Below are positions 110 to 24,045 of a DNA stretch of 64,000 nucleotides, piece by piece (position 1 is the first letter of the stretch; the number at the start of each line of letters is the position of its first letter). This stretch comes from Sulfurovum sp. (lineage in GTDB: Bacteria; Campylobacterota; Campylobacteria; Campylobacterales; Sulfurovaceae). The DNA is taken from positions 1 through 64,000 of the forward strand of contig JALWTA010000004.1 of NCBI GenBank assembly GCA_027082955.1, in the 5' to 3' direction. The position numbers were made by a program, and so were the translations under genes. Below the pieces are notes generated by a model. That model worked only from the letters and a program-made list of their open reading frames with translations. It made no database searches and had not been told where the DNA came from.

Positions 110-1162
110 TCAATGCAAATTCAAATCTTTTTTTTGTCCTCTTCTTTGCAAACGCATCTTGAGTTTGGCAAGTTCTCTCATATCGACATGAGCATCACTC
201 TCATCGACGATTTCAACCCCAAGGATGGTCTCTACACAATCTTCCAGAGTGACAATACCTTCGACCTGGTCATACTTGTCCAGTACCAGGAACATATGCT
301 CTTTCTTTTCTATAAAAAGATCCAACGCCCATGATACCGGTACCTGTTCATTGATGCGGTAGATATCTTTCTGAATTGCTTTCAACTTTACACTGTCATC
401 TTTAAGCGCTTGTGAGAAGAGATGCTTGGTGAGGATCATTCCTGTTACCTTTTCAATGTTGCCATCATACACAGGGATTCTCGAATATTTGAAAATGTCT
501 GCCTCGTTTTTCACAATATCTGAAACAGTTCGTTCTCCATCCAGTGCGAAGACAACACTTCTTGGTGTCAAGATGTCATGTACCTTGATATCATCGAGCT
601 TGAGAATATTTTCAATAATATCCGACTCCTGCTCATCCAGCACCCCCTCATCCTCGCTAAGAAGTGTACTCTCCAAAAGCTCCTCTTTACTGAGACTGTG
701 CCCTTCATCGCCTTTTTTAATGCGATTGGTCACGAAGAGAGTCAGCAAAATGACGGGATAGGTCAGCCAGATAAAGAATTTGATCACATAGGCTGCCAAT
801 GGTGAAAGCTGCTTCCAGTAGGTCGCACCGATCGTTTTGGGAATGATCTCCCCTGCAAACAAAATAGCAAATGTCAGAATGGCAGACACCCAGAAGAGTG
901 CCCCAGAGCCAAATACACGCTCTGCCTGTGCACCGACTGCTGCTGCTCCGACAGTGTTGGCGATCGTATTGAGTATGAGAATGGATGCAATAGACTTGTT
1001 GATATTGTGTTTGTGCTGTTTCAGCAAAGCCCCAGCCTTGGGTTTCTCCTTTTCAAGCACAGAGATAAAAGGTATCGTAACCGAGAGCAGTACTGATTCC
1101 AGCACTGAACAGACAAACGATACAATGACCGCGCCCAAGAAATAGATCACTAAAAGATTCAT
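110..1162 (-). CDS. CNNM/CorC-type membrane protein with CBS pair
   Basis: 350 aa. Residues 1 to about 145 hold the DUF21 (CNNM) membrane domain: an N-terminal hydrophobic segment, then three more segments, with the family's GEIIPKT motif near residue 105. Residues about 190-315 form two CBS domains (LTPRSVVFAL start, then VEGIVTLEDCVETILG). The protein ends shortly after the second CBS, so the C-terminal CorC_HlyC domain of longer relatives is missing. The family is implicated in Mg2+/Co2+ efflux or Mg sensing; older annotations call it hemolysin. It starts 18 nt after the mgtE stop on the same strand, so the two are probably cotranscribed, which supports a role in magnesium balance. The ATG is preceded by AAGGA at a rather long distance. 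Confidence 0.85.
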   Translation of the reverse strand: MNLLVIYFLGAVIVSFVCSVLESVLLSVTIPFISVLEKEKPKAGALLKQHKHNINKSIASILILNTIANTVGAAAVGAQAERVFGSGALFWVSAILTFAILFAGEIIPKTIGATYWKQLSPLAAYVIKFFIWLTYPVILLTLFVTNRIKKGDEGHSLSKEELLESTLLSEDEGVLDEQESDIIENILKLDDIKVHDILTPRSVVFALDGERTVSDIVKNEADIFKYSRIPVYDGNIEKVTGMILTKHLFSQALKDDSVKLKAIQKDIYRINEQVPVSWALDLFIEKKEHMFLVLDKYDQVEGIVTLEDCVETILGVEIVDESDAHVDMRELAKLKMRLQRRGQKKDLNLH

Positions 1163-1180
1163 CGCAGTTTCAATTTCCTT

Positions 1181-2509
1181 CTATAGTAAAATAACGGTTG
1201 CTAAACCCAAAAATGCAAAAAAACCGACTATATCTGTCACCGTCGTCAGTATAACCGTACTGCCGATCGCAGGGTCTATACCGAACTTTTTCAGCATGAG
1301 AGGTATCATCGAACCAAAAAAACCTGCACTCAGCAGATTGATCACCATTGCCATAGCAATCACCACACCAAGCATTCCTTTATGGAACCATATTGCAGCG
1401 ATCACACCGATGACCACGGCAAAAAGAAGTCCGTTTGCCAGTGAGAGCAGCACCTCCTTTTTGATCGTACGAAAGGCATCATGTTTGGCAATTTCACCAA
1501 GCGCAAGCTGGCGTACGACCACCGTAAGCGACTGTGTACCGGCATTGCCGCCCATCGATGCCACGATCGGCATCAAAACAGCAAGCGCCACATACTGCTG
1601 AAGTGTCCCTTCAAAAAGACCAATCACCAGCGATGCAGCGATCGCTGTAAGAAGATTGATCCCAAGCCAGACAGCACGTGCCTTACCTGCTTTGAAAAGG
1701 TCATCATCCTCTTCAGCATCATCGCTTACCCCTGCAAGATGGTACATCTGATCCGTCGCATGCTCGCTGATAAGGTCATAGATATCATCCGACGTGATTC
1801 GCCCAAGCAGTTTTCCATAGGTATCGACGATCGGCATGGAACCCAGATCGTATTCCTGGAATTTCTGCACGATCTCTTTAATATCATCGTGGTCATGACC
1901 TATGATCGGTTTGAACTTTTCAGGATTTTCCTGAATATTCTCACGCAGTGTACGGCTTGGATCAAACACGATCAGATCATCCAGACCGACACCGTATCTT
2001 AGGTAACCTTCATCATCGGTCACAAAAAGATAGTTGATATTTTCAAGTTCGCCCTGGCGTTTGAGCGTTGCGAACTCTTTTATGACATCTTCTACTTTCT
2101 GATCAAGCTTTGCCGAGTAGACCTCCACCTGCATGTAGGCACCGGCTTCATGCTCTTCATACTGCTTCAGTTGAAGAATATCTTCCTGATCCTCTTTGTC
2201 AAGCTGCTCAAATACCTCTTTTGCTTTCGAGTCATCATGCTCTTCAAGTTCTTGAATGAAGTCCGTTTGGTCATCGGACTCCATCTCTGACAGAGACTCT
2301 GCAATCTCTTCCGGCGTAAAGTTTTCCACCACATCGCCAAAATAGCGATCCGGAAGCTCCAATGCAACATCGGCTATAAGCTCTTTGGGGATGGAATGCA
2401 CCGCCTCATCAAAATGTGTATCACTCAAATCTTTAAGCAGATTGGCGATCTCAGAGGGGTGCAGTTCTTCTTCTTTGCGTGTTTGAAGATAGTGCCTAAA
2501 CTTCTCCAT
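1181..2509 (-). CDS. mgtE: MgtE-type magnesium transporter
   Basis: 442 aa, normal for MgtE. An acidic, helical N domain (residues about 10-130) is followed by a CBS pair (about 130-255), a connecting helix and five membrane segments (about 285-442). The MgtE signature GGNAGTQS is visible near residue 320. In the family, CBS and N domains bind cytosolic Mg2+ and close the pore. The start has a good Shine-Dalgarno (GGAAGGAC, about 7 nt upstream). It is the first gene of a two-gene unit with the CNNM-type protein. No M-box-like riboswitch is apparent in the short leader. Confidence 0.93.
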   Translation of the reverse strand: MEKFRHYLQTRKEEELHPSEIANLLKDLSDTHFDEAVHSIPKELIADVALELPDRYFGDVVENFTPEEIAESLSEMESDDQTDFIQELEEHDDSKAKEVFEQLDKEDQEDILQLKQYEEHEAGAYMQVEVYSAKLDQKVEDVIKEFATLKRQGELENINYLFVTDDEGYLRYGVGLDDLIVFDPSRTLRENIQENPEKFKPIIGHDHDDIKEIVQKFQEYDLGSMPIVDTYGKLLGRITSDDIYDLISEHATDQMYHLAGVSDDAEEDDDLFKAGKARAVWLGINLLTAIAASLVIGLFEGTLQQYVALAVLMPIVASMGGNAGTQSLTVVVRQLALGEIAKHDAFRTIKKEVLLSLANGLLFAVVIGVIAAIWFHKGMLGVVIAMAMVINLLSAGFFGSMIPLMLKKFGIDPAIGSTVILTTVTDIVGFFAFLGLATVILL

Positions 2510-2538
2510 TACACTGTCCTTCCTGGATTTTTTGACAT

Positions 2539-2567
2539 ATTATACTTGGTTTTGGGAGAGAAAGAAA
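2539..2567 (-). promoter_or_regulatory. Probable promoter of mgtE
   Basis: The minus strand reads TATAAT (positions 2544-2539), 30 nt upstream of the mgtE start, with a weak TTCTTT at -35 spacing (17 nt). The -10 box is convincing; the -35 is not. Confidence 0.45.
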
Positions 2568-2602
2568 GAGACAAAAGTAGCATTTGTCTCCTATTTGCAG
2601 TA

Positions 2603-2806
2603 CTATTTTTCAGGAATATCACACTTTTTGGTAATGATACATAACGGACAAAAATTGGCAATCCCCGCAATGAGAGGAATAATACCAAGGAAAAGCCACT
2701 TAGACCATGATGCATCGATCACAAATGCCCCAATAATCAAAGCTGTTCCTAGAATAATCCTAAATACACGACAAAAACTGCGTATTTTGTTGTAGTTGAC
2801 AGCCAT
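2603..2806 (-). CDS. DUF2892 (YgaP membrane-type) small protein
   Basis: 67 aa. Two hydrophobic segments (about 13-30 and 36-52) separated by a short basic turn, then a C-terminal NFCPLCIITKKCD tail rich in cysteine. This is the DUF2892 layout (inner-membrane, often next to or fused to rhodanese or thioredoxin-like domains). The same architecture, including the N-x-CPL element, forms the N-terminus of the fusion protein at 35497-36012. RBS AAAGGATTC precedes the ATG. It sits alone between pckA and mgtE; its partner is unknown. Confidence 0.7.
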   Translation of the reverse strand: MAVNYNKIRSFCRVFRIILGTALIIGAFVIDASWSKWLFLGIIPLIAGIANFCPLCIITKKCDIPEK

Positions 2807-2858
2807 ACGAATCCTTTTCTAAAAACTATATGAAACTATACACTATCATACTTAGAAT

Positions 2859-2884
2859 AAAATAAGAGCAAATTGCTCTTATTT
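2859..2884 (-). terminator. Rho-independent terminator after pckA
   Basis: A near-perfect inverted repeat (AATAAGAGCAA / TTGCTCTTATT) lies 15 nt past the pckA stop. On the minus strand it is followed by a T-rich tract (TTTTATTC). Confidence 0.75.
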
Positions 2885-2898
2885 CAAAAGGTAGCGTT

Positions 2899-4491
2899 TT
2901 AGAGCTGCGGTCCTGCAGAAGCAAAGTCGAATTTACCACCTTTGTCGTCATATCGGTGGAAATTCTCTTGGAACATCTTGGCAAGCTTGGCTAGACTTGC
3001 ATCATACTCTGCTTTGTCCGCCCATGTATTTCTAGGATTCAGTACGGTATTGTCCTGAACACCTTCGAGAGACTTTGGTATCTGAAGATTGAAGGTAGGC
3101 AGTGTTTCAAACTCGGCATCGTTGATAGAACCGTTCAAAATACCATCAATACATGCACGTGTATCTTTAATGCTCATACGTTTACCTACACCGTATGGTC
3201 CTCCTGTCCATCCGGTATTGACAAGATAGACATTTACATTGTGCTCATCGATTTTCTTTCCGAGCAGCTCTGCATAGACTGTCGGATGCAGCGGCAGGAA
3301 GGCTTCACCAAAACATGCGGAGAAGGTCGCTACAGGTTCAGTGATCCCACGCTCAGTACCCGCTACTTTGGCAGTATAACCGCTAAGGAAGTAGTACATC
3401 GCCTGTTCTTTGGTCAGTTTGCTCACCGGTGGCAATACACCGAATGCATCGGCAGTAAGGAAAATAATATTGCTTGGATGCCCAGCCTGAAGGTTTGGCT
3501 GATGGTTTTCAATGTGTTCAATAGGGTATGATACACGTGTATTTTCTGTTTTGGAATCATCAGCATAATCAACATTACCGTTCTCATCGGCAACGACATT
3601 TTCAAGCAGTGCATCTTTGGTAATGGCACCATAGATCTCAGGCTCTGATTTTGGATCGAGGTTGATCACTTTTGCATAACAGCCGCCTTCGAAGTTAAAG
3701 ACGCCATTGTCATCCCAACCGTGTTCATCATCACCGATAAGCGCTCGGTTTGGATCGGTAGAGAGTGTGGTTTTCCCTGTACCTGAAAGTCCGAAGAAGA
3801 GGCATACATCTCCCTCTTTGCCCACATTGGCAGAACAGTGCATAGAGAGCTTTCCTTCAAGTGGAAGCCAGTAGTTCATCATAGAAAAGATACCTTTTTT
3901 CATCTCACCGCCGTACCACGTACCACCGATGATAGAAACATTATCTTCAACGTTAAAGACGACAAAGACATCGGAGTTAAGTCCGTGTTCTTTGTACTTT
4001 TCGTCTACCGCTTTACACGCATTATATACGGTAAAATCAGGCTCAAAATTTTCCAGTTCCTCTTCTGTAGGACGGATGAACATATTTTTGACAAAGTGCG
4101 CCTGCCAAGCCACTTCTGTCACAAAACGGATAGAACGGCGGCTTGCTTTGCTTGCTCCGGTAAAGACATCCATCACATAGATTTTTTTGCCGGAAAGCTG
4201 CTGTTTTGTCAAAGCTAGCAATTCTTCATAGATCTCTTTTTTGATCGGTCTGTTCACGTCACCCCATGCAATGTGCTGGTTTGACGGCGGCTGATCTACA
4301 AAATATTTATCTTTTGGACTCCTTCCGGTAAAAATACCGGTATCGCACATTGCTGTGCCTGAGGTTGAAATCTTGCACTCGCCTCTGTTAATCTCGTGCG
4401 CTTGCAACTCATCATAACTCAGATTGTAATAGACTTCTTGAATATCTGACAATCCGAGTGCATCAAGTCCGTTGGGCATTTTGGTACTCAT
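2899..4491 (-). CDS. pckA: Phosphoenolpyruvate carboxykinase (ATP)
   Basis: 530 aa, full length. It interconverts oxaloacetate + ATP and PEP + CO2 + ADP. Residues 234-244 carry the kinase P-loop [11 protein letters not shown], followed by GDDEHGW (metal and substrate site). [13 protein letters not shown] near 188-200 contains the conserved lysine region, and TGRSPKDKY near 55-63 is the oxaloacetate-binding stretch. Its own promoter region carries a 26-bp palindrome, and a terminator follows the gene, so it is probably monocistronic. Together with oadGAB just upstream it handles oxaloacetate; in an rTCA organism the gluconeogenic direction is likely. Confidence 0.96.
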
Positions 4492-4535
4492 AGTATCCTC
4501 TTTATTATTTTGTAGTTACATTATGCCAAAGCATA

Positions 4536-4561
4536 CGTTAGAAAAAGAACTTTTTCTAACG
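4536..4561. promoter_or_regulatory. Perfect 26-bp palindrome upstream of pckA
   Basis: CGTTAGAAAAAG, a 2-nt spacer (AA) and its exact reverse complement. It lies 45 nt upstream of the pckA start. A likely pckA extended -10 (TGGCATAAT on the minus strand) lies between it and the gene, so the palindrome overlaps the expected -35 region. It could be an operator for pckA. A separate GC-rich terminator hairpin for the oad operon lies beside it. Confidence 0.5.
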
Positions 4562-4582
4562 CATACCTTCAAAAGAAGCAAA

Positions 4583-4600
4583 GCGGAGAAAACGCTCCGC
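4583..4600 (-). terminator. Terminator hairpin after oadB
   Basis: Stem GCGGAG / CTCCGC with a 6-nt loop, 7 nt past the oadB stop. On the minus strand it is followed by a T-rich stretch (TTTGCTTCTTTT). Confidence 0.65.
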
Positions 4601-4606
4601 ATACTG

Positions 4607-5959
4607 CTACTTAAAGATAGAAAGCAATACACCTGCTGCAACAGCAGAACCGATAACTCCTGCCACGTTAGGACCCATAGCATGCATCAAAAGAATATTG
4701 CCGGGTTTCGCTTCGGAACCTACCTTGCTCGATACCCTTGCTGCCATAGGTACGGCAGAAACCCCTGCCGAACCGATAAGCGGGTTGATTGGCTCATCTG
4801 AGAATTTGTTCATGATCTTCGCCATCAGTACACCTGCTGCTGTACCGGCAGCAAATGCCAGCAGACCGATGATCATGATCCCCAGTGTCTCGGCAACAAG
4901 GAACTTGTCTGCCTGCAGTGTCATACCGACACCAAAACCAAGGAAGATCGTTACGACGTTGATCAGTGAATTTTGCATCTCGTTAGAGAGTCTATCCACT
5001 ACGCCTGACTCTTTAGCAAAGTTACCAAAGGCAAAGGCCCCCATCAGCGGTGCTGCATCAGGCAGCACCATCGCGATCATCATGATCACAACCAACGGGA
5101 AGATAAGTTTTTCAAGCTTATTGACTTTTCTGCCCGTTTTCATCACGATCTTACGTTCTTCTTCTGTGGTCAGTGCTTTCATGATCGGAGGTTGGATCAC
5201 CGGTACAAGTGCCATGTAGGAGTATGCCGCAACCGCAATAGCTCCCAGCATTTCAGGTGCAAGTGCCGATGCGATGAAGATAGATGTCGGGCCATCCGCA
5301 CCACCGATAATGGAGATGGCTGAACACTGTTTGAGCGTAAAGTCAACCATGCCTGTATACTGTGACAGCATAGCAGCACCAACCAGAGAACCGAAAATCC
5401 CAAATTGTGCTGCACCGCCAAGCAGTGCTGTTTTTGGATTGGCAAGCAGCGGACCAAAATCGGTCATTGCCCCTACCCCCATAAAGATCAGCAGCGGGAA
5501 GAACTCATTATGAATACCCATATTGTAGATAATACCAAGCATCCCGTCAGGTCCTGTCATATTGGCTACAGGGATATTCGCCAGAAGCCCGCCAAATGCA
5601 ATAGGAAGCAGCAGCAGCGGCTCAAAGCCTTTCGCAATCGCCAGATAGAAAAGAATGAAGATGATGATGAACATGATCACGCGTCCCCAACTCTGCGCGA
5701 ATTTACTCATCTCGACCCCCTGACCGTTTTTAACCCCCTCTTTTGGGTTCAAAATGGCGTAGAGTCCAGTGGTCGTAAAGAAACTGCTAATGAGTTCGGT
5801 GACACTTTTAGGATGGTAAGTTGCCTGTTCCTGTGCAATCAGCTCTTTTTGTGTCAGAAAATGCTTTGCTCCGCCTTCATGCTCTGAAGCAACTGCACTG
5901 GCAGTCCCCAGAAAGGCGAATGCAAAGAGTATAGAGAGTAACAGATGTTTGATCTTCAT
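4607..5959 (-). CDS. oadB: Oxaloacetate decarboxylase beta subunit (Na+ pump)
   Basis: 450 aa, a polytopic membrane protein with an apparent N-terminal signal-like segment. The family subunit decarboxylates carboxybiotin on OadA and couples this to Na+ export. Family hallmarks include [10 protein letters not shown] near residue 220 and the repeated glycine-rich membrane hairpins. The N-terminal extension before the first conserved segment (about 80 residues with a hydrophobic start) is typical of the longer epsilonproteobacterial forms. It starts 2 nt after the oadA stop, so translation is probably coupled. Confidence 0.93.
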
Positions 5960-15892: not shown

Positions 15893-16426
15893 TTATTGGA
15901 AACTACGTCCAGCAGGTATAGCTCCTCGTGCATACCATGGATCATCGTGTATCTTGAAGCGCCACAACACTCTACTCAACATCCCTTTTGCATAATATAT
16001 CTGTAGTTCATCATGCTCTCTGTCTATCCATCCACTGATTCTATACATCATGCCTCTAATGTCTCTTTCTTCTCCTTTGTCATCTCTGATCATCACCCTA
16101 CTCATTTTTACTGCTCTTTGAGTTTCATCTAATTCTAAAAATTCTGATTCTGCAACCATAATGGATTCAAAAAGCTCTTTGAGTATATCTGAGGCATAAA
16201 TACTGTTACGGATATATATCTTTTTGAGTGCCAAGTAATCTTTGTACGGATCTTCCACACCGTACCTTATATGTTCCATATAGTAAACATACATTGGTGT
16301 ATATAGCTTCTCCAGCCTCTCTTTTATCTCATCTTTTTTGCGGTTTGAGATGAAGATGTAGAGGTTGGTTCCAGCAACAAGCGTCGCACCCATGATTGCG
16401 CCGATTCCTAAGGTATTTATGTCCAA
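15893..16426 (-). CDS. Uncharacterised membrane-anchored protein downstream of hsdM
   Basis: 177 aa from a TTG start (AGGA about 10 nt upstream). An N-terminal hydrophobic helix (about 5-27) is followed by a basic stretch and a long helical, charged cytoplasmic domain; no cysteines stand out. No family recognised. It follows hsdM by 18 nt and is the last gene of the restriction locus, so it is probably cotranscribed. A role in the defence locus is only suggested by position. Confidence 0.6.
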   Translation of the reverse strand: MDINTLGIGAIMGATLVAGTNLYIFISNRKKDEIKERLEKLYTPMYVYYMEHIRYGVEDPYKDYLALKKIYIRNSIYASDILKELFESIMVAESEFLELDETQRAVKMSRVMIRDDKGEERDIRGMMYRISGWIDREHDELQIYYAKGMLSRVLWRFKIHDDPWYARGAIPAGRSFQ

Positions 16427-16444: not shown

Positions 16445-17911
16445 TTACAGTTCAGTTAATATATTTTTGAAGCCCTCTAATGCAGCTTCAATCTCATCCA
16501 CAATCTCCTGAGCCAAAACATCGGGCTCAGGAAGATTTTCCATGTCTGTCAAGCTCTCATCTTTGATCCATGTAATATCAAGACTTGTTTTATCTCTTGC
16601 AATGATTTCGTTATATGTATATTTCCGCCACCGACCATCGGGGTTCTCTTCGCTCCATGTCTCTATGCGATCTTCTCTGTGGTCGGGACAATAGCACTCG
16701 ATGAAGTCCAGTAGATGCTCAGATCGCATTGGATTTTTCTTTTTGGTATGATGGATATTGGTCCGGTAGTCATATATCCATACCTCTTTTGTCCACGGTG
16801 TTTTTCGAGTCGGTTTGTTGTCGAAAAAAAGCACATTGGCTTTGACACCGTTGGCGTAGAAGATACCGGTCGGTAGTCTCAAAATAGTATGTAGGTCTGT
16901 CTTCTCCAGCAACTTTTTACGTACTGTTTCTCCCGCTCCACCTTCAAAGAGGACGTTGTCGGGGACAACCACCGCCGCTTTTCCGTCGACTTTGAGCATC
17001 GTGTAGATATGTTGGAGGAAATTGAGCTGTTTGTTGGATGTGGTCGTCCAGAAGTCTTCACGGTTGTATGTGAGTTCCTCTTTATTCTGTACACCCTCTT
17101 CGTTGGTGAAGGTCATGGAACTTTTCTTGCCAAAAGGAGGATTCGCCAATACATAATCTACCGTTTTTTTAGGAGAGGCAATCAGCGCATCCGCTCCGGA
17201 AATCATCGGTTCCCCGTCTATTTCACCGATGTTGTGCAAAAACATATTCATCAGCGCCAGTCGGCGGGTATTGGCCACGATCTCATTACCAGAAAATGTT
17301 TTATGTTTGAGAAAGTCGCGTTCATCTCTGTCGAGTTTTTGGGCAGAGAGATAGTCGTAGGCTGCCAGAAAAAACCCTCCGGTACCGCAGGCGGGGTCGG
17401 CGATGGTCTTTTTGGGCTTGGGTCGCATCACCTCTACCATCGCGCGGATGAGCGCACGCGGGGTAAAGTACTGTCCCGCACCGCTTTTGGTATCTTCCGC
17501 ATTTTTCTCAAGCAACCCTTCATAGATCTCGCCTTTGACATCGGTACCGACCATCATCCAGTTCTCTTTGTCGATCATATCGATGAGTTTATGAAGTTTT
17601 GCCGGATCCTGGATCTTGTTTTGGGATTTTGTAAATATCTGCCCAAGCATCCCTTGTTGCTGACCCAATGTCTGAAGCGTAAGGATATAGCGAGTTTCTA
17701 GTTCCGCACCTTTGAGTACCTTCAAATCACTCCAAGTATAGCCTTCGGGGATGCCGACTTTGCGATTGTATGGCGGTTTGCTGTACTCCTCAGCCATCTT
17801 CAAAAAGAGCAAATAGGTAATCTGTTCGAGATAGTCACCGTAACTCACACCATCATCACGCAGGACATTGGCGAAGTTCCAGATTTTGTTTATGATTGTT
17901 GCGGGGCTCAT
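16445..17911 (-). CDS. hsdM: Type I restriction-modification methyltransferase subunit
   Basis: 488 aa. An N-terminal HsdM helical domain (about 1-130) precedes an N6-adenine methyltransferase domain with the SAM motif DPACGTGGF (172-180) and catalytic NPPF (257-260). With HsdS it methylates adenines in a bipartite site; with HsdR added it restricts unmodified DNA. RBS AAGGA lies before the ATG. Unusually it is separated from hsdS by two unrelated genes and comes after hsdR and hsdS in transcription order. Confidence 0.95.
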   Translation of the reverse strand: MSPATIINKIWNFANVLRDDGVSYGDYLEQITYLLFLKMAEEYSKPPYNRKVGIPEGYTWSDLKVLKGAELETRYILTLQTLGQQQGMLGQIFTKSQNKIQDPAKLHKLIDMIDKENWMMVGTDVKGEIYEGLLEKNAEDTKSGAGQYFTPRALIRAMVEVMRPKPKKTIADPACGTGGFFLAAYDYLSAQKLDRDERDFLKHKTFSGNEIVANTRRLALMNMFLHNIGEIDGEPMISGADALIASPKKTVDYVLANPPFGKKSSMTFTNEEGVQNKEELTYNREDFWTTTSNKQLNFLQHIYTMLKVDGKAAVVVPDNVLFEGGAGETVRKKLLEKTDLHTILRLPTGIFYANGVKANVLFFDNKPTRKTPWTKEVWIYDYRTNIHHTKKKNPMRSEHLLDFIECYCPDHREDRIETWSEENPDGRWRKYTYNEIIARDKTSLDITWIKDESLTDMENLPEPDVLAQEIVDEIEAALEGFKNILTEL

Positions 17912-17922
17912 TTTTTTCCTTG

Positions 17923-18393
17923 CTAATATAAAATATCTTTAATACTCAACTTTGCCAGTGCCACAGTTGAAAAAGAGACCAATGAAATAGACCAAAATGT
18001 TATTAGAAATATAGTACCGTAAGTCATGTCAAGTTTTATTGCATAATACCAACTCCACAAACTTCCTAGTAATGACAATACTGATATAACTAAAGCATAA
18101 TATATCCGATTCCTTAGCATCCAGTAGTTTGGCCATGTTTTCAATTTTTTTCTATTTTCTTTGTCTTCTGGATTCAAAATCATTTCTCCAAACTTATAAG
18201 TAAATACTAATGAAGTAACAGGAATACCAAGTAATTTTATATAATCATTCCACTGCATTTTTGGATTAAAAATGTATGATGATATAAATTCTGCAGTTTC
18301 AGAGAATCGTATCATAAGAAGTAGCACTACGGTTCCAAATACAATCTCTGGAGAAATAAAAATGAATCTTACGGTATCTAAAAACTTTTTCAT
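17923..18393 (-). CDS. Small four-helix membrane protein inside hsd locus (ORF Y)
   Basis: 156 aa. Four hydrophobic segments are visible (about 5-28, 40-62, 90-115, 125-150) with a basic cytoplasmic-type loop (NPEDKENRKKLK) between the second and third. Its ATG shares one base with the stop of ORF X (TAATG), so the two are translationally coupled and probably work together. It ends 11 nt before hsdM. Base composition is clearly more AT-rich than hsdM or hsdR. Size and topology resemble RexB-like membrane partners, but no sequence motif proves this. Confidence 0.6.
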   Translation of the reverse strand: MKKFLDTVRFIFISPEIVFGTVVLLLMIRFSETAEFISSYIFNPKMQWNDYIKLLGIPVTSLVFTYKFGEMILNPEDKENRKKLKTWPNYWMLRNRIYYALVISVLSLLGSLWSWYYAIKLDMTYGTIFLITFWSISLVSFSTVALAKLSIKDILY

Positions 18394-19295
18394 TAATGTT
18401 CCAAATATCTTTCGCTGTTTATCGTTACGAGTTCTTCTTTTACAAAATTGAATAACTCTTCTCTATCCGGATCTTTATCAAACAAAAAACTCTTCTGGTT
18501 ATCTTTAGTTTTTATAACAATTTGCTCATTATTACTTAATCCCTCTATCTTAGCTCTACCATAACCATCTGCAGCCATGAGAGTTGCTGCATCTGAAATA
18601 TCATATTTTTCATTTTCTAGAAGTTTTATTTTTTCTTCATCCGAAGCATTTTTCATCTCTAATATCGACTTCATAAAGCTTACCAGTTTCGTTCTTAGTC
18701 CATTTGTGCTTTTAGATTTTTCACTAATTGACAGTTCTCCACTTTCTCTTTTTTCCATATAGTCTTTGAGTTCTTTCCATGCGGGACCAAACAGAGGATT
18801 CGGTGGAACCACATTTGCAGATATTCTTTGAACAATATCTATAGTTGAAACACGTTCAATAAATGTACGCAAATCGACTATCGGTTCAATTTTGCAAGAA
18901 ACCAATAAGTTATCATACTTTTCACAAATCAATTCACAAAAGTATTTCTCAAATTGCTCTTTTTGTAATGTATTCCATATATGAGGATATGCAATCCCCA
19001 TATAATCTAAGACAACAACAAATGGACTAGAGGATTCTTTCTTGTGTTGAATTAGCATGGTAGACTCTTTATGTTCGTTTGGTTCAATAGTTTCAACTTC
19101 ACCTATAGGCATAAATTTCACTAATTTCCCAAACAGATAATTATTTTTCTGATCATAATACATATTGGTAAAAGTATAACTGTATTCTTTTTTTCTAATA
19201 ATTACAGGCTTCATAATGGCTTCAATCAAATCATTGGATGTTAAAGATCCACCTTTAGTAATCCGCCCAAGATAATATCTATACTGTTTCGGCAT
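18393..19295 (-). CDS. Uncharacterised soluble protein inside hsd locus (ORF X)
   Basis: 300 aa from the ATG at 19295, chosen because AAGGAAG lies just upstream; a longer frame to 19361 would overlap hsdS and lacks an RBS. No signal peptide or membrane helix. The first 130 residues look beta-rich; a central stretch holds KIEPIVDLRTFIERV and VPPNPLFGPAWKEL. The C-terminal third is charged and helical. This order vaguely matches RexA-type proteins (beta-rich N-domain, IEPL, then NPSPQF), but identity is too low to assign by eye. Markedly AT-rich. Translationally coupled to membrane ORF Y. Confidence 0.55.
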   Translation of the reverse strand: MPKQYRYYLGRITKGGSLTSNDLIEAIMKPVIIRKKEYSYTFTNMYYDQKNNYLFGKLVKFMPIGEVETIEPNEHKESTMLIQHKKESSSPFVVVLDYMGIAYPHIWNTLQKEQFEKYFCELICEKYDNLLVSCKIEPIVDLRTFIERVSTIDIVQRISANVVPPNPLFGPAWKELKDYMEKRESGELSISEKSKSTNGLRTKLVSFMKSILEMKNASDEEKIKLLENEKYDISDAATLMAADGYGRAKIEGLSNNEQIVIKTKDNQKSFLFDKDPDREELFNFVKEELVTINSERYLEH

Positions 19296-19326: not shown

Positions 19327-20784
19327 TTATCTGATATCTGCCTGAACAAGCTTCCCTTCAAACGCCTGCTTCAAAATGCTCTGCCGCAGCATTTTAGCTT
19401 TTTGTAGGTTTTTATCAATAGTTTCCTCTACCTCATCAGCTTTATCTAAATGTGTATTAATTCTATGGATAATTTCATTTTGTTCTTTAATAGACATTAC
19501 TGGAACAGGAACCGTTTGCAAGATCTTCTCATTAAGGTTTTGCATAGTTGTTCCAATGGAGCAATTTTCGAGAAAATCTCTAACATTTTTTGAGCCAAGA
19601 ATATTTACGTAAAATTTTGGATTCAACATAGATGAAAGTCTCACAAATAAACTTCCTGTCCCACAGAGAAATCCATCATTTTTTGAAGAAATCAAAGCAC
19701 ATCTCCCCATCTCACCTCTGCGGCCCATAACAATATCGCCTTTTTTCATTATGTATTTTTTTAGACTTTGTGCCTTTTCATTAGAAATTGTCAAATTGCT
19801 ATCAGGGATGATTTTTTGATTTTTAATATGACTTGGATTAATTATTGGAATACCGTTTTTAATATAGTCAGACTTGTGCAATAATGAACCAAAAGGGCCA
19901 ATTTGGATTAAATATGATATGTTTTGTAATTTAACCCACTTCCACCCATCCGGCAGCTTCGGCAAATCTCTCAATTCCTCTTCGCTCAACGGCGGCAACT
20001 CTTTGGGCTTTTTCGGCTTCGCAGGCTTCTTTCCCTCTTTCCCACTCTCTTCCCAAGCCTTCACCGCCGCTTTCCACTCTTCCAAGCTCTTCTCATACGC
20101 CTCTTCACGCTCTTTTTTGATGCGCTCAAGCAGCGTATCGGCATCTTCGAGTTCATCTTTGTGCGCTTCTCTCCAGGCTTTTGTCAGCTCCCCTTCAAAG
20201 GCGGCTTTGAGGACTGATTGACGGTATAGCGCCAGTTTTTTCTTCGCCGTTTGGAGGCTTTCGATGCTTTTGTCCAGTTCTGAAAAGAGAGATTCGATCT
20301 TGGCGACGGTGCGGTTTTGTTCTTCTATCGGAGGTAGAGGTATTTTGATCTTTTTTGCATTCGTATCATTCAGTGCAGATTGGGTTGAGCCGGAACACAA
20401 GGCATCTTTCTCTTTCAAAAAAATACTTGAACCCAAGTAAAAGTACAAGAATTTTGGCACATAAGTGTTACCATAGGGTCTTACCTGAAAAAATCCCGTA
20501 GAAAAAAGTGCGCCGTCTAATCGATCGTCTATCAGTAAAGCCTTATTGGTTCCTTTCATTCGGGCTTGCAAGACATCATTCTTCTGAACCAAACGATTTG
20601 CTCTTGAGGGGCGATCAGAAAATGAATATATGCCTTCCGGGATATGTTCTTTATCTTTAATACTTCCCGTAGAGTAGTAAGGTTTTTCACCTTCATACGG
20701 TTCTACGCCTGTAGGTACATAATTCAAATCTTCTACTAACGAGATATATTTCCAATGCTTTGGAATTTTCAATTTCTCTGCCAT
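19327..20784 (-). CDS. hsdS: Type I restriction-modification specificity subunit
   Basis: 485 aa. Two target-recognition domains (about 1-145 and 275-425), each followed by a conserved helix (first near 150-200, containing LYRQSVLKAAFEGEL; second near 440-485, containing MLRQSILKQAFEGKL). This internal repeat is the HsdS hallmark and sets the spacing of the bipartite target. Between helix 1 and TRD 2 lies an unusually long charged segment rich in Lys, Glu and Pro (about 200-270). The start is 1 nt after the hsdR stop (TGATATG). TRD-coding DNA is more AT-rich than the conserved parts, as expected for exchangeable TRDs. Confidence 0.94.
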   Translation of the reverse strand: MAEKLKIPKHWKYISLVEDLNYVPTGVEPYEGEKPYYSTGSIKDKEHIPEGIYSFSDRPSRANRLVQKNDVLQARMKGTNKALLIDDRLDGALFSTGFFQVRPYGNTYVPKFLYFYLGSSIFLKEKDALCSGSTQSALNDTNAKKIKIPLPPIEEQNRTVAKIESLFSELDKSIESLQTAKKKLALYRQSVLKAAFEGELTKAWREAHKDELEDADTLLERIKKEREEAYEKSLEEWKAAVKAWEESGKEGKKPAKPKKPKELPPLSEEELRDLPKLPDGWKWVKLQNISYLIQIGPFGSLLHKSDYIKNGIPIINPSHIKNQKIIPDSNLTISNEKAQSLKKYIMKKGDIVMGRRGEMGRCALISSKNDGFLCGTGSLFVRLSSMLNPKFYVNILGSKNVRDFLENCSIGTTMQNLNEKILQTVPVPVMSIKEQNEIIHRINTHLDKADEVEETIDKNLQKAKMLRQSILKQAFEGKLVQADIR

Positions 20785-20785
20785 A

Positions 20786-23572
20786 TCAGCTCACCAACTC
20801 CTCATTCATCTCATCCACCAAATCATACAGCCTATCTCCAAAGACGCTATATGCCTTTGCCAGTGCTCCTTGTTCTATCAGCTCCAAATCCTCCACTTCA
20901 AAGCGGTATGAGCGGGCGATCTCGTCACGAATCTTTTGCAGCCAGGCGATCTGCTCTTTTGTGAATTTGGGTGCGTTGCCTTTTTGTTTCTCAAACGTCC
21001 ACTGTTTGAAATTTTCCATCACTCGCTTCTCAAGCGGGGTCAATGTCTTATCTATACCGGAAGTGTAGCGCAGCAGTCCCACCAAAGCGCCCAGCTCACT
21101 CTTGGGTGTGCCGTTGGCGGCGCTGAGGCGCTCGTATGCCTCCCACACTTTCAAAGGCGCAAGGGGCGGGCGTGACTCTTTGAGCTTTTCCAGCAGCTCT
21201 TTGATCATCCGGTAGGTTACTTCACGGCGGCGGTAGGGCTCACTGTAGAAGATACGCAATACCGTGATCTCCTCTTTGTTCGCCTCGATAAACGCCTGAA
21301 AACTCTCAATGATGCTTTTCGCTCCCTCTTCGCTGTCGCTCTTCCACCCGCTAAAGACAACCGAATCGATATTGACCGTATCGATGATCTGCTCTCGCTT
21401 CCTGCGTACATTTTCCACAAAATCCACCAGCTCTCCGGTGAGAAGTGAACGCGCCTCCTGTGTCAGCTCCTCCTCCACTTGCTTGAGTTGCTCCGGGGTT
21501 GCCTCCTCTTCAGAGTCGAGGTCAAAAAGTCTCTGGGCGCGTTCGACCTGTTTGTCGATATCGTGAGCATCCAAAAATTTATGGATCACCTCTTCGATGC
21601 TGCAATCGGCGATCTTTTCAAACTCCTCCCGTTCTTTGGGTGTCATCTCTTTATTGAGCCGCGCCAAGCGGGCAGCAATAGAGCGGAAGGTGTCTTCGTC
21701 ATCGGCTTCACCCATCAGGACACTCATCATCAGATCTTTGGTCGCGACCGATTTTTTGCGCTCCATCGGCTGGGAGTCGGTTTTGACCGATTCCGTCACA
21801 CCGACGGCATCGACGATGATGAAGTGTGTTTTTTCATGATCGATGTCGGTGCCCGCCTTTTGCATCATATCCATACTACAGACCCGCGTACCGCGCCCCT
21901 TCATCTGTTCATAGTAGTTACGGGACCGCACATCACGCATAAAGATCAGACACTCCAACGGTTTTACATCGGTTCCCGTGGCGATCATATCGACCGTTAC
22001 GGCGATGCGTGGGTAGTAGTCGTTGCGCAGCTCCTGCAAAGTCTCTTTTGGGTTTTTTGCCTGGTAGGTGACTTTTTTGCAAAATTCATTGCTTTCGCCG
22101 AACTCTTCCCGGACGATTTTGATGATATCGTCGGCATGAGAGTCGTTTTTGGCAAAGATCAGTGTCTTGGGTACCTCTTTTCGACCCGGAAAGAGTACGG
22201 GCAGCTTGGCGCGAAACTCTTTGATGATGTTGCGTATCTGGCTGGGATTGACCACTTTTTTATCGAGTTGCGACTGTTTGTACTCCACATCGTCATCGAG
22301 TTCACGCCACTTCTTTTTGCGGGTGAGCTTGTCGCGGTGTTCGATCACCTGTTTGATCACCACGCCGTTTTCGTCTTTTTTCTCTTTTTCGATGCGGGCA
22401 CCCTGTTGGGTGATTTCAGTTGAAATGATGTACTCTTCATAGGGTACGTTCACCCCGTCCGCGACCGCCTGGTCATGAGTGTATTCGCTTACGATGTTTT
22501 CATGAAAAAAGGCAAAGGTACGGTTGTCCGGTGTCGCAGTCAAGCCGATAAGGAAGGCATTGAAATAGTCCAAAACCTGCTGCCAGATATTGTAGATAGA
22601 TCGGTGACACTCGTCGATGATAATGAAGTCGAAAAACTCTATGGGTATCTCGGGATTGTAAACGACCTCTTTGGGACGCTCTTTCAAGCTGTATTCGAAA
22701 TGGCTCTCGTTTTCGGCGCTTTCATCGAGTTCTTTCCCCCGAAGGATCGAGTACATCCGCTGAATGGTACTGATGCAAACCTGCGAGTCGGTGGCAATAT
22801 AGGAGCTACTTAGACGCTGAACATTGTAAAGTTCGGTAAATTGCCGGTTATCATCTTGGGGCTTGTATGCCATAAACTCTTTTTCGGCTTGCTCTCCAAG
22901 GTTTTTGGTATCGACCAGAAAAAGGATCCGCTTGGCATGTGCATATTTGAGCAGCCGATAGACTGAAGTGATCGCCGTGTAGGTCTTACCCGCTCCCGTG
23001 GCCATTTGGATGAGTGCACGCGGACGGTTTTGTGCAAAAGAGGTTTCGAGGTTTTGTACTGCGTTTAGTTGACAATCACGCAGTCCCACAGGATCCAAAG
23101 GAGGAAGTTTTTGCAATCGGCTGCGAAGTGTATCTCCCTCTTCCAGCCAGGCTTTGAGTGTTTCGGGACGATGGAAGGTAAACACTTCGCGCGATCGCGG
23201 TTTTGGGTCGCGTTCATCTCTAAATCGGGTCAATGTCCCCGTACTTTCGTAGATAAAAGGCAAAGGCTTATCATTTGCACACCATTTTAGCTTTGCTTTT
23301 GCATAGCCGCCGGACTGTTCCTCTACAACAGAGAGCCGATAACCATCGGTATCTTTTTTCGCTTCGATGATCCCAACGGGCTTAGCATCGACAAAAAGGA
23401 CATAATCTGCAGGCCCGATGTCGGTCTGATACTCACGAACCGCTATTCCCTTTGCTGAATTATGATTGATTTTGTTTTTGTCCTGCACAGCCCACCCGGC
23501 AGCGATAAGCATCGCATCGATTTGGTCTCTAGCTATTTGTTCCGGGTTTTGGTTAGGGTCGAGTTTGTACAT
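20786..23572 (-). CDS. hsdR: Type I restriction endonuclease/translocase subunit
   Basis: 928 aa. The N-terminal nuclease domain has D56 and E70-A-K72 of the PD-(D/E)xK fold. A superfamily 2 translocase follows, with Walker A ATGAGKT (191-197) and DECH (320-323), then a second RecA domain and an EcoEI-type C-terminal helical domain that binds the methylase core. First gene of the locus, so hsdRS-X-Y-M-Z is one probable transcript. The RBS (GTGGACA) is weak. Confidence 0.95.
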   Translation of the reverse strand: MYKLDPNQNPEQIARDQIDAMLIAAGWAVQDKNKINHNSAKGIAVREYQTDIGPADYVLFVDAKPVGIIEAKKDTDGYRLSVVEEQSGGYAKAKLKWCANDKPLPFIYESTGTLTRFRDERDPKPRSREVFTFHRPETLKAWLEEGDTLRSRLQKLPPLDPVGLRDCQLNAVQNLETSFAQNRPRALIQMATGAGKTYTAITSVYRLLKYAHAKRILFLVDTKNLGEQAEKEFMAYKPQDDNRQFTELYNVQRLSSSYIATDSQVCISTIQRMYSILRGKELDESAENESHFEYSLKERPKEVVYNPEIPIEFFDFIIIDECHRSIYNIWQQVLDYFNAFLIGLTATPDNRTFAFFHENIVSEYTHDQAVADGVNVPYEEYIISTEITQQGARIEKEKKDENGVVIKQVIEHRDKLTRKKKWRELDDDVEYKQSQLDKKVVNPSQIRNIIKEFRAKLPVLFPGRKEVPKTLIFAKNDSHADDIIKIVREEFGESNEFCKKVTYQAKNPKETLQELRNDYYPRIAVTVDMIATGTDVKPLECLIFMRDVRSRNYYEQMKGRGTRVCSMDMMQKAGTDIDHEKTHFIIVDAVGVTESVKTDSQPMERKKSVATKDLMMSVLMGEADDEDTFRSIAARLARLNKEMTPKEREEFEKIADCSIEEVIHKFLDAHDIDKQVERAQRLFDLDSEEEATPEQLKQVEEELTQEARSLLTGELVDFVENVRRKREQIIDTVNIDSVVFSGWKSDSEEGAKSIIESFQAFIEANKEEITVLRIFYSEPYRRREVTYRMIKELLEKLKESRPPLAPLKVWEAYERLSAANGTPKSELGALVGLLRYTSGIDKTLTPLEKRVMENFKQWTFEKQKGNAPKFTKEQIAWLQKIRDEIARSYRFEVEDLELIEQGALAKAYSVFGDRLYDLVDEMNEELVS

Positions 23573-23688: not shown

Positions 23689-23988
23689 TCAGACCGCATA
23701 GAGCACTTCACTCTCTATTTGTCTTTTCAGCCCTTTTCTAAGCCTTGGATGCTCATGGATCATATCGATTTTTTTGCCAAATGCCTTTTCCAGATAGAGC
23801 CACAAACCCGTCATATTATCGACTGTTTTCTCACTAAAAACCACATAAAAGTCAATATCGCTTTTCTCTGTCGCCAAATCTTTGGCATACGAGCCAAAAA
23901 GACCAATCTTGCTCACGGCATACTTCTCTTGCAGCAAACTTTTATGTTCTCTGATAAAGTTTAGTATCTCTTCTTTTTGCATTGCCAT
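23689..23988 (-). CDS. MNT-type nucleotidyltransferase domain protein
   Basis: About 99 aa from the ATG at 23988 (a TTG at 24000 is possible). GLFGSYAKDLATEKSDIDF carries the minimal nucleotidyltransferase signature: G-S near residue 33 and the D-x-D pair at 44 and 46. Such proteins are often the MntA antitoxin of HEPN-MNT pairs, where they AMPylate the HEPN RNase. No HEPN gene is adjacent: hsdR lies downstream and selO upstream. An extended -10 (TGCTATAAT on the minus strand, box at 24027-24022) suggests its own promoter. Confidence 0.75.
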   Translation of the reverse strand: MAMQKEEILNFIREHKSLLQEKYAVSKIGLFGSYAKDLATEKSDIDFYVVFSEKTVDNMTGLWLYLEKAFGKKIDMIHEHPRLRKGLKRQIESEVLYAV

Positions 23989-24045
23989 GTTTTTACTCAA
24001 AATATCTATTGCTTTTCCTGTATTATAGCATATTACAGCAAGAGG

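Follow-up and report, generated by a model that had tools for sequence, protein, structure and literature searches.

A divergent DUF4747-type gene pair in the hsdS-hsdM gap of a Sulfurovum type I restriction operon, probably a RexAB-like abortive-infection module

What are two AT-rich genes, one for a soluble protein and one for a small membrane protein, doing between hsdS and hsdM of a type I restriction locus? The question arises from the first 64,000 nucleotides of a Sulfurovum sp. contig (JALWTA010000004.1), here called the window. A first-pass annotation had likened the pair to RexA and RexB of phage lambda and suggested an abortive-infection module coupled to restriction. The reading favored here is that the pair (genes A and B) is probably a divergent, RexAB-like abortive-infection module of the DUF4747 type, carried as cargo in the gap between hsdS and hsdM. 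The features concerned are as follows.

20786..23572, minus strand: hsdR, restriction subunit (ResIII E 7.8e-40, EcoEI_R_C E 2.5e-31; best NCBIfam match NF008521)
19327..20784, minus strand: hsdS, with two target-recognition halves (Methylase_S E 1.4e-23; PADLOC Specificity_I E 5.9e-70)
18393..19295, minus strand: gene A, ATG start, 300 aa, soluble; taken as a divergent DUF4747-superfamily member, proposed sensor
18774..18818, minus strand: motif region around VVPPNPLFGPAW in A; P164, N166, P167 and W173 invariant in the six-member alignment
18538..18582, minus strand: motif region LMAADGYGRAKIEG in A; M240, D243-G246 and G252 invariant in the six-member alignment
17923..18393, minus strand: gene B, 156-aa four-helix membrane protein, proposed effector
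16445..17911, minus strand: hsdM, modification subunit (N6_Mtase E 3.8e-71; PADLOC MTase_I E 2.8e-199)

The minus-strand order is hsdR, hsdS, A, B, hsdM; the hsd genes were confirmed by both Pfam and PADLOC, and all three appear intact. Coordinates and junction sequence bear out the TAATG-joined pair described by the first-pass annotation: the A stop codon overlaps the B start codon as TAATG, the junction reading ...GAACATTAATGAAAAAG. Thirty-one nt separate the hsdS stop from the A start and 11 nt separate the B stop from the hsdM ATG, each gap containing a purine-rich stretch that resembles a ribosome-binding site. Given the overlap and these spacings, the five genes can be read as one operon. 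Directly downstream of hsdM (15893-16426, minus strand) is a gene for a 177-aa protein with one N-terminal membrane segment and no family match; at 39% GC it is AT-richer than hsdM, and it may represent additional cargo, or an accessory gene, of the hsd operon. Just upstream of hsdR lies a gene for an MNT-type nucleotidyltransferase (23689-24000, minus strand; Polbeta E 3e-13).

Location within the hsd operon, with shared transcription, is what one would expect of an accessory to the type I system, which might control restriction, or else adjust the Hsd complex or tether it, for instance to the membrane. The base composition of the pair, however, is sharply unlike that of hsdR and hsdM. Its GC content of 30.9% is lower than that of every one of 1253 equal-sized steps across the window, in keeping with the AT-richness remarked on earlier; the window as a whole has 46.9% GC, hsdR 49.6% and hsdM 46.1%. 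At third codon positions the pair has 25% GC, as against 59% in hsdR and 53% in hsdM. The 3' half of hsdS also falls within the AT-rich zone (36.4% GC), and an AT-rich recognition half is common in hsdS genes where that half was exchanged by recombination.

The plasmid relatives of the window hsdM also bear on this point. Genes other than A and B precede hsdM in six of the seven relatives examined (L064-L069): a DUF262 protein in Gemmobacter, PtuA and PtuB of Septu in Pantoea (PADLOC E 3e-196 and 9e-88), a HipA-like protein and a HIRAN protein in Rhodococcus, a GIY-YIG nuclease in Streptomyces, an AAA ATPase in Roseomonas, and two membrane-anchored proteins in Pusillibacter. The Vibrio relative has nothing at this position, and an eighth relative, from Methylomonas, was left uncounted for want of an annotated hsdS beside its hsdM. 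None of the cargo proteins that were profiled (all except those of Streptomyces and Roseomonas) was A-like, and no close hsdM was found among 175 genomes of the window's own family. Several of the occupants are of known defense type (Septu, GmrSD-like). As different genes lie ahead of hsdM in six of seven relatives, the hsdS-hsdM gap is best viewed as a cargo slot; that close relatives hold unrelated cargo there, or none, also argues against an accessory of the Hsd complex. Defense genes embedded in type I restriction operons are known from TgvAB (PMC11411939) and DarTG2 (PMC12255303), and the A-B pair is a new occupant of this known kind of slot.

The description of the products as a 300-aa soluble protein and a 156-aa four-helix protein has held up. 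A has no transmembrane segment, and AlphaFold places four long helices in B (residues 15-42, 48-73, 90-120 and 123-146; mean pLDDT 63), of which hydropathy recovers three strong membrane segments and one weak one (best 1.21). Searches of Pfam, NCBIfam and PADLOC returned no match to A, and PHROGs only one at chance level; even up to E 10, Pfam yielded nothing for the A proteins of the window, the cyanobacterial plasmid and the Nitrospinae contig described below, bar one irrelevant match. B likewise has no meaningful match in Pfam, NCBIfam, PADLOC or PHROGs, and a Foldseek search of its model against viral proteins gave no match at E 0.001; Sbash gp31 ranked seventh, with an E of about 1, which is not evidence of a structural match. 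The AlphaFold model of A, made from an alignment of two sequences (pLDDT 35), is unusable for fold comparison. Along the second half of A, prediction gives a strand, a helix, a strand with the proline motif, a helix and a hairpin, an order that gives the impression of resembling the published dimerization domain of RexA.

Five further A-B pairs were found, one on a cyanobacterial plasmid, one on a Nitrospinae contig and three in Bacteroidota, so that the pair is now known from six loci in at least four phyla. A always comes first and a four-helix gene follows directly (6/6 loci), most pairs overlapping, while identity among the A proteins is 20-45%. A tblastn search of plasmids gave a single distant A, from Picosynechococcus sp. 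PCC 8807 (20% identity, E 2e-6). A 27-kb plasmid carries it beside dndE and dndD, with its four-helix gene following. This stretch of the small plasmid (L003, NZ_CP016488.1, 1752-7369) comprises dndE, dndD, a gene for a DUF2442 protein and the A-B pair, and additional Dnd-associated genes lie farther along. On the Nitrospinae contig (L022), A begins 16 nt behind a type I specificity-like gene (Methylase_S E 2.2e-6) and overlaps its four-helix gene; this locus came from a genome-wide search with a DNA pattern that was one base off in spacing and therefore under-finds members, and was afterwards confirmed by profile.

Sampled genomes were also searched with a profile built from the A proteins of the window, the cyanobacterial plasmid and the Nitrospinae contig. 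Matches came from 3 of 296 genomes (L048, L049 and L050, each at E <=1e-49, each with B directly downstream of A) in the phylum of a Bacteroidales genome, from 1 of 77 in that of the Nitrospinae, and from none of 398 in that of Pseudomonas. A single-sequence search of 397 genomes of the window's own phylum returned essentially the window alone; one further match there, in genome G303 (E 8e-5 over 92 residues of a 115-aa frame with unrelated neighbors), was judged to be chance. The A-B branch, known from few members, is rare and patchy. Phage records and viral contigs gave no match to A, so the branch is not obviously phage-borne. It is a scattered and previously unrecognized group that is invisible to current defense databases, and the motifs P.NP...W and MAADGYG can be used to find more A members.

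The settings of these pairs return us to the accessory explanation. The Nitrospinae pair directly behind an hsdS-like gene and the cyanobacterial pair near dnd genes are what it would predict, but the other loci do not fit: L049 has NYN and TIR genes in its surroundings, L050 is a further setting of its own, and the neighborhood of L048 contains no clear defense genes and no restriction genes. The A-B pair therefore does not need restriction genes, and the fact that it also occurs away from restriction loci speaks for independent action. Together with the composition and the slot relatives, this makes an accessory role unlikely. A toxin-antitoxin-like pair, with B toxic and A its neutralizer, serving mainly to maintain the restriction island, would account for a cassette of two overlapping genes, one of them for a small membrane protein, that is mobile, AT-rich and patchy, and the L048 pair adjoins a YefM-like antitoxin gene (read by eye). 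That said, the A-like protein of studied relatives activates its membrane partner rather than neutralizing it (PMC12894663), and the link to DUF4747 described next ties A to infection-sensing systems, so we regard this explanation as quite improbable.

Of the proteins that the first-pass annotation had singled out for comparison, it was the DUF4747 type that proved informative. Aligned by hhalign, the six A proteins match five DUF4747 proteins over 250 columns, that is, full length, with a probability of 96.0% and E 3.8e-9; adding a seventh, more distant A (from L051, see below) raises this to 97.4% and E 9.6e-12, all such E-values referring to single comparisons of small alignments. Sixty column-shuffled controls reached at most 0.5% (six A proteins) or 0.8% (with L051) and reversed profiles 0.1%. 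The match survives leaving out any single member (79.7-96.1%), and three A proteins of the window clade alone still give 76% (E 2.2e-5). From the other direction, a DUF4747 HMM built in this analysis matches the cyanobacterial A at E 3.6e-7. Shared motifs follow the same lines: the PNP element is common to A and DUF4747, and the LMAADGYGRAKIEG region, in which residues 240-246 form an M-x-x-D-G-Y-G motif, has a DUF4747 counterpart in A..NG.V...G. A does not reach the Pfam gathering cut-off for DUF4747 (PF15931); on the strength of the profile match and its controls, we treat it as a distant member of that superfamily.

Pfam DUF4747 is present in 3 of 120 genomes from the phylum of Pseudomonas, and two more copies, both on plasmids, came from tblastn (Pfam E 2e-42 and 1e-41); in all five loci sampled a four-helix gene comes immediately after the DUF4747 gene (that of L060 read by eye). 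Profiles of the B family and of these partners match at 86% (E 5e-6; shuffles at most 0.2%), a result carried by the Nitrospinae, cyanobacterial and L050 members. Because the window clade of B fails on its own (0.2%), kinship between the B family and the DUF4747 partners is probable, not proven. Two of the DUF4747 loci sit in prophage-like regions, judging by eye from their neighbors, and no DUF4747 was found in viral contigs. At another (L059, 662-13716) the pair lies by a long helicase, DUF262-like, PIN-like and ATPase genes and a large methylase-like gene (by eye), apparently a defense island. The prophage system "DUF4747/CarolAnn" has been counted as an immune operon that is often near restriction operons, and DUF4747 operons have been placed next to restriction operons under CapKS control (PMC13373217); such pairs are called RexAB-like abortive-infection systems in the literature.

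These results weigh on a third alternative, that A and B have an unrelated function, such as transport or stress signaling, and resemble Rex only superficially. Neither protein has an annotated function, and no sequence similarity to RexA or RexB was detected, as such a view would have it. Against it stand the full-length DUF4747 profile match with its clean controls, a four-helix partner at 6/6 A loci and 5/5 DUF4747 loci, and several neighborhoods rich in defense genes, and we consider it very improbable indeed.

How close, then, is the pair to lambda Rex itself? The first-pass annotation was correct that sizes, topology and gene order agree: lambda RexA has 279 aa and RexB 144 aa with four helices. 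KIEPIVDL and VPPNPLFGPAW are both found in A, but the likeness it had seen between these and IEPL and NPSPQF in RexA is not significant. Neither protein has a Pfam match to RexA (PF15969) or RexB (PF15968), and hhalign gives about 0.1% for both; comparisons with the Sbash, CarolAnn and Butters proteins (MAFFT, hhalign) gave nothing above noise, and DUF4747 likewise failed to align with RexA or with the proteins of Sbash and CarolAnn. Neither profiles nor motifs read by eye thus support direct homology to lambda RexA/RexB. The same profile test fails for RexA against Sbash gp30 as well; its power is therefore low, and it does not decide Rex homology. Weak DUF4747 matches have been reported for lambda RexA and for the soluble halves of the published defense pairs Sbash 30/31 and CarolAnn 43/44 and of Butters (PMC6426596, PMC6426606, PMC7542560), that of Butters at E 140. 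An abortive-infection module appears right in kind, with a conserved pair, A-DUF4747 homology and some defense-like loci behind it, though naming RexAB was too specific.

If the DUF4747-type reading is correct, a mechanism can be proposed from studied relatives. RexA is a DNA-binding protein with an RdgC-like fold, and non-specific DNA binding has been shown for RexA, Sbash gp30, CarolAnn gp44 and Toast gp42 (PMC11077077); in the RexAB pair of Pseudomonas putida, RexA likewise shows non-specific DNA binding, and RexB damages the membrane upon RexA overexpression (PMC12894663). By analogy, A would be a soluble, DNA-binding dimer that recognizes a phage-specific DNA state or a phage protein. Once activated, it would open or assemble B in the inner membrane, which would be permeabilized or depolarized; with integrity or energy lost, growth would stop before phage release. 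Transcription shared with hsd would make the pair a second line of defense, and we propose that it acts as a back-up to restriction; that the trigger and restriction are functionally linked is a guess.

The distant A of L051 suggests a modular sensor. There (875-5746) A is overlapped not by a membrane-protein gene but by one for an FRG-domain protein (Pfam FRG E 8e-26; PADLOC candidate PDC-S15 E 1e-48). Beyond the FRG gene come a cytosine methyltransferase-like gene (by eye) along with an HTH and an HNH nuclease, a type II-like restriction system. Defense-like contexts of the family include hsd in the window, the hsdS-like gene of L022, dndD and dndE on the plasmid, NYN and TIR genes at L049, and this FRG, methyltransferase and nuclease cluster. 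A broader idea, which we hold to be rather doubtful, is that the A family supplies restriction, Dnd and type II loci with a portable sensor of infection tied to DNA modification. Its effectors would be interchangeable (four-helix or FRG), and it would fire once defense based on modification had been breached, DNA ends left by restriction being one conceivable trigger. On the preferred reading, RexAB-like systems are not confined to prophages but also occur within a host's restriction operon, with relatives in at least four phyla, and the window offers a natural test of coupling between membrane-killing abortive infection and restriction.

Among known systems, TgvAB and DarTG2 share with A-B the arrangement of a two-gene defense cargo within a type I operon, that of TgvAB also having five genes, but TgvAB is a GmrSD-like type IV enzyme and DarTG2 a toxin-antitoxin, whereas A-B would be a membrane-effector pair. 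Lambda RexA and RexB (RexA structure 8TWQ) are likewise a soluble protein followed by a four-helix one of similar sizes; they differ in lying in a prophage immunity region and in showing no sequence similarity by profile comparison. RexABpp of P. putida (PP_5643/PP_5644, PMC12894663) has the same two-gene soluble plus four-helix architecture and serves as the functional model here, a likeness drawn from the published description; unlike A-B, it is prophage-encoded. The closest resemblance is to the DUF4747 plus four-helix pairs, which have soluble proteins of ~300 aa with full-length profile similarity to A, PNP and A..[DG][NY]G motifs, a four-helix gene immediately downstream, and other defenses nearby. 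The DUF4747 loci sampled lie in prophages, on plasmids and in a defense island, whereas the window pair is inside an hsd operon; its A is below Pfam detection for DUF4747 even at E 10, and window-clade B, at 156 aa, is shorter than the DUF4747 partners of about 190-210.
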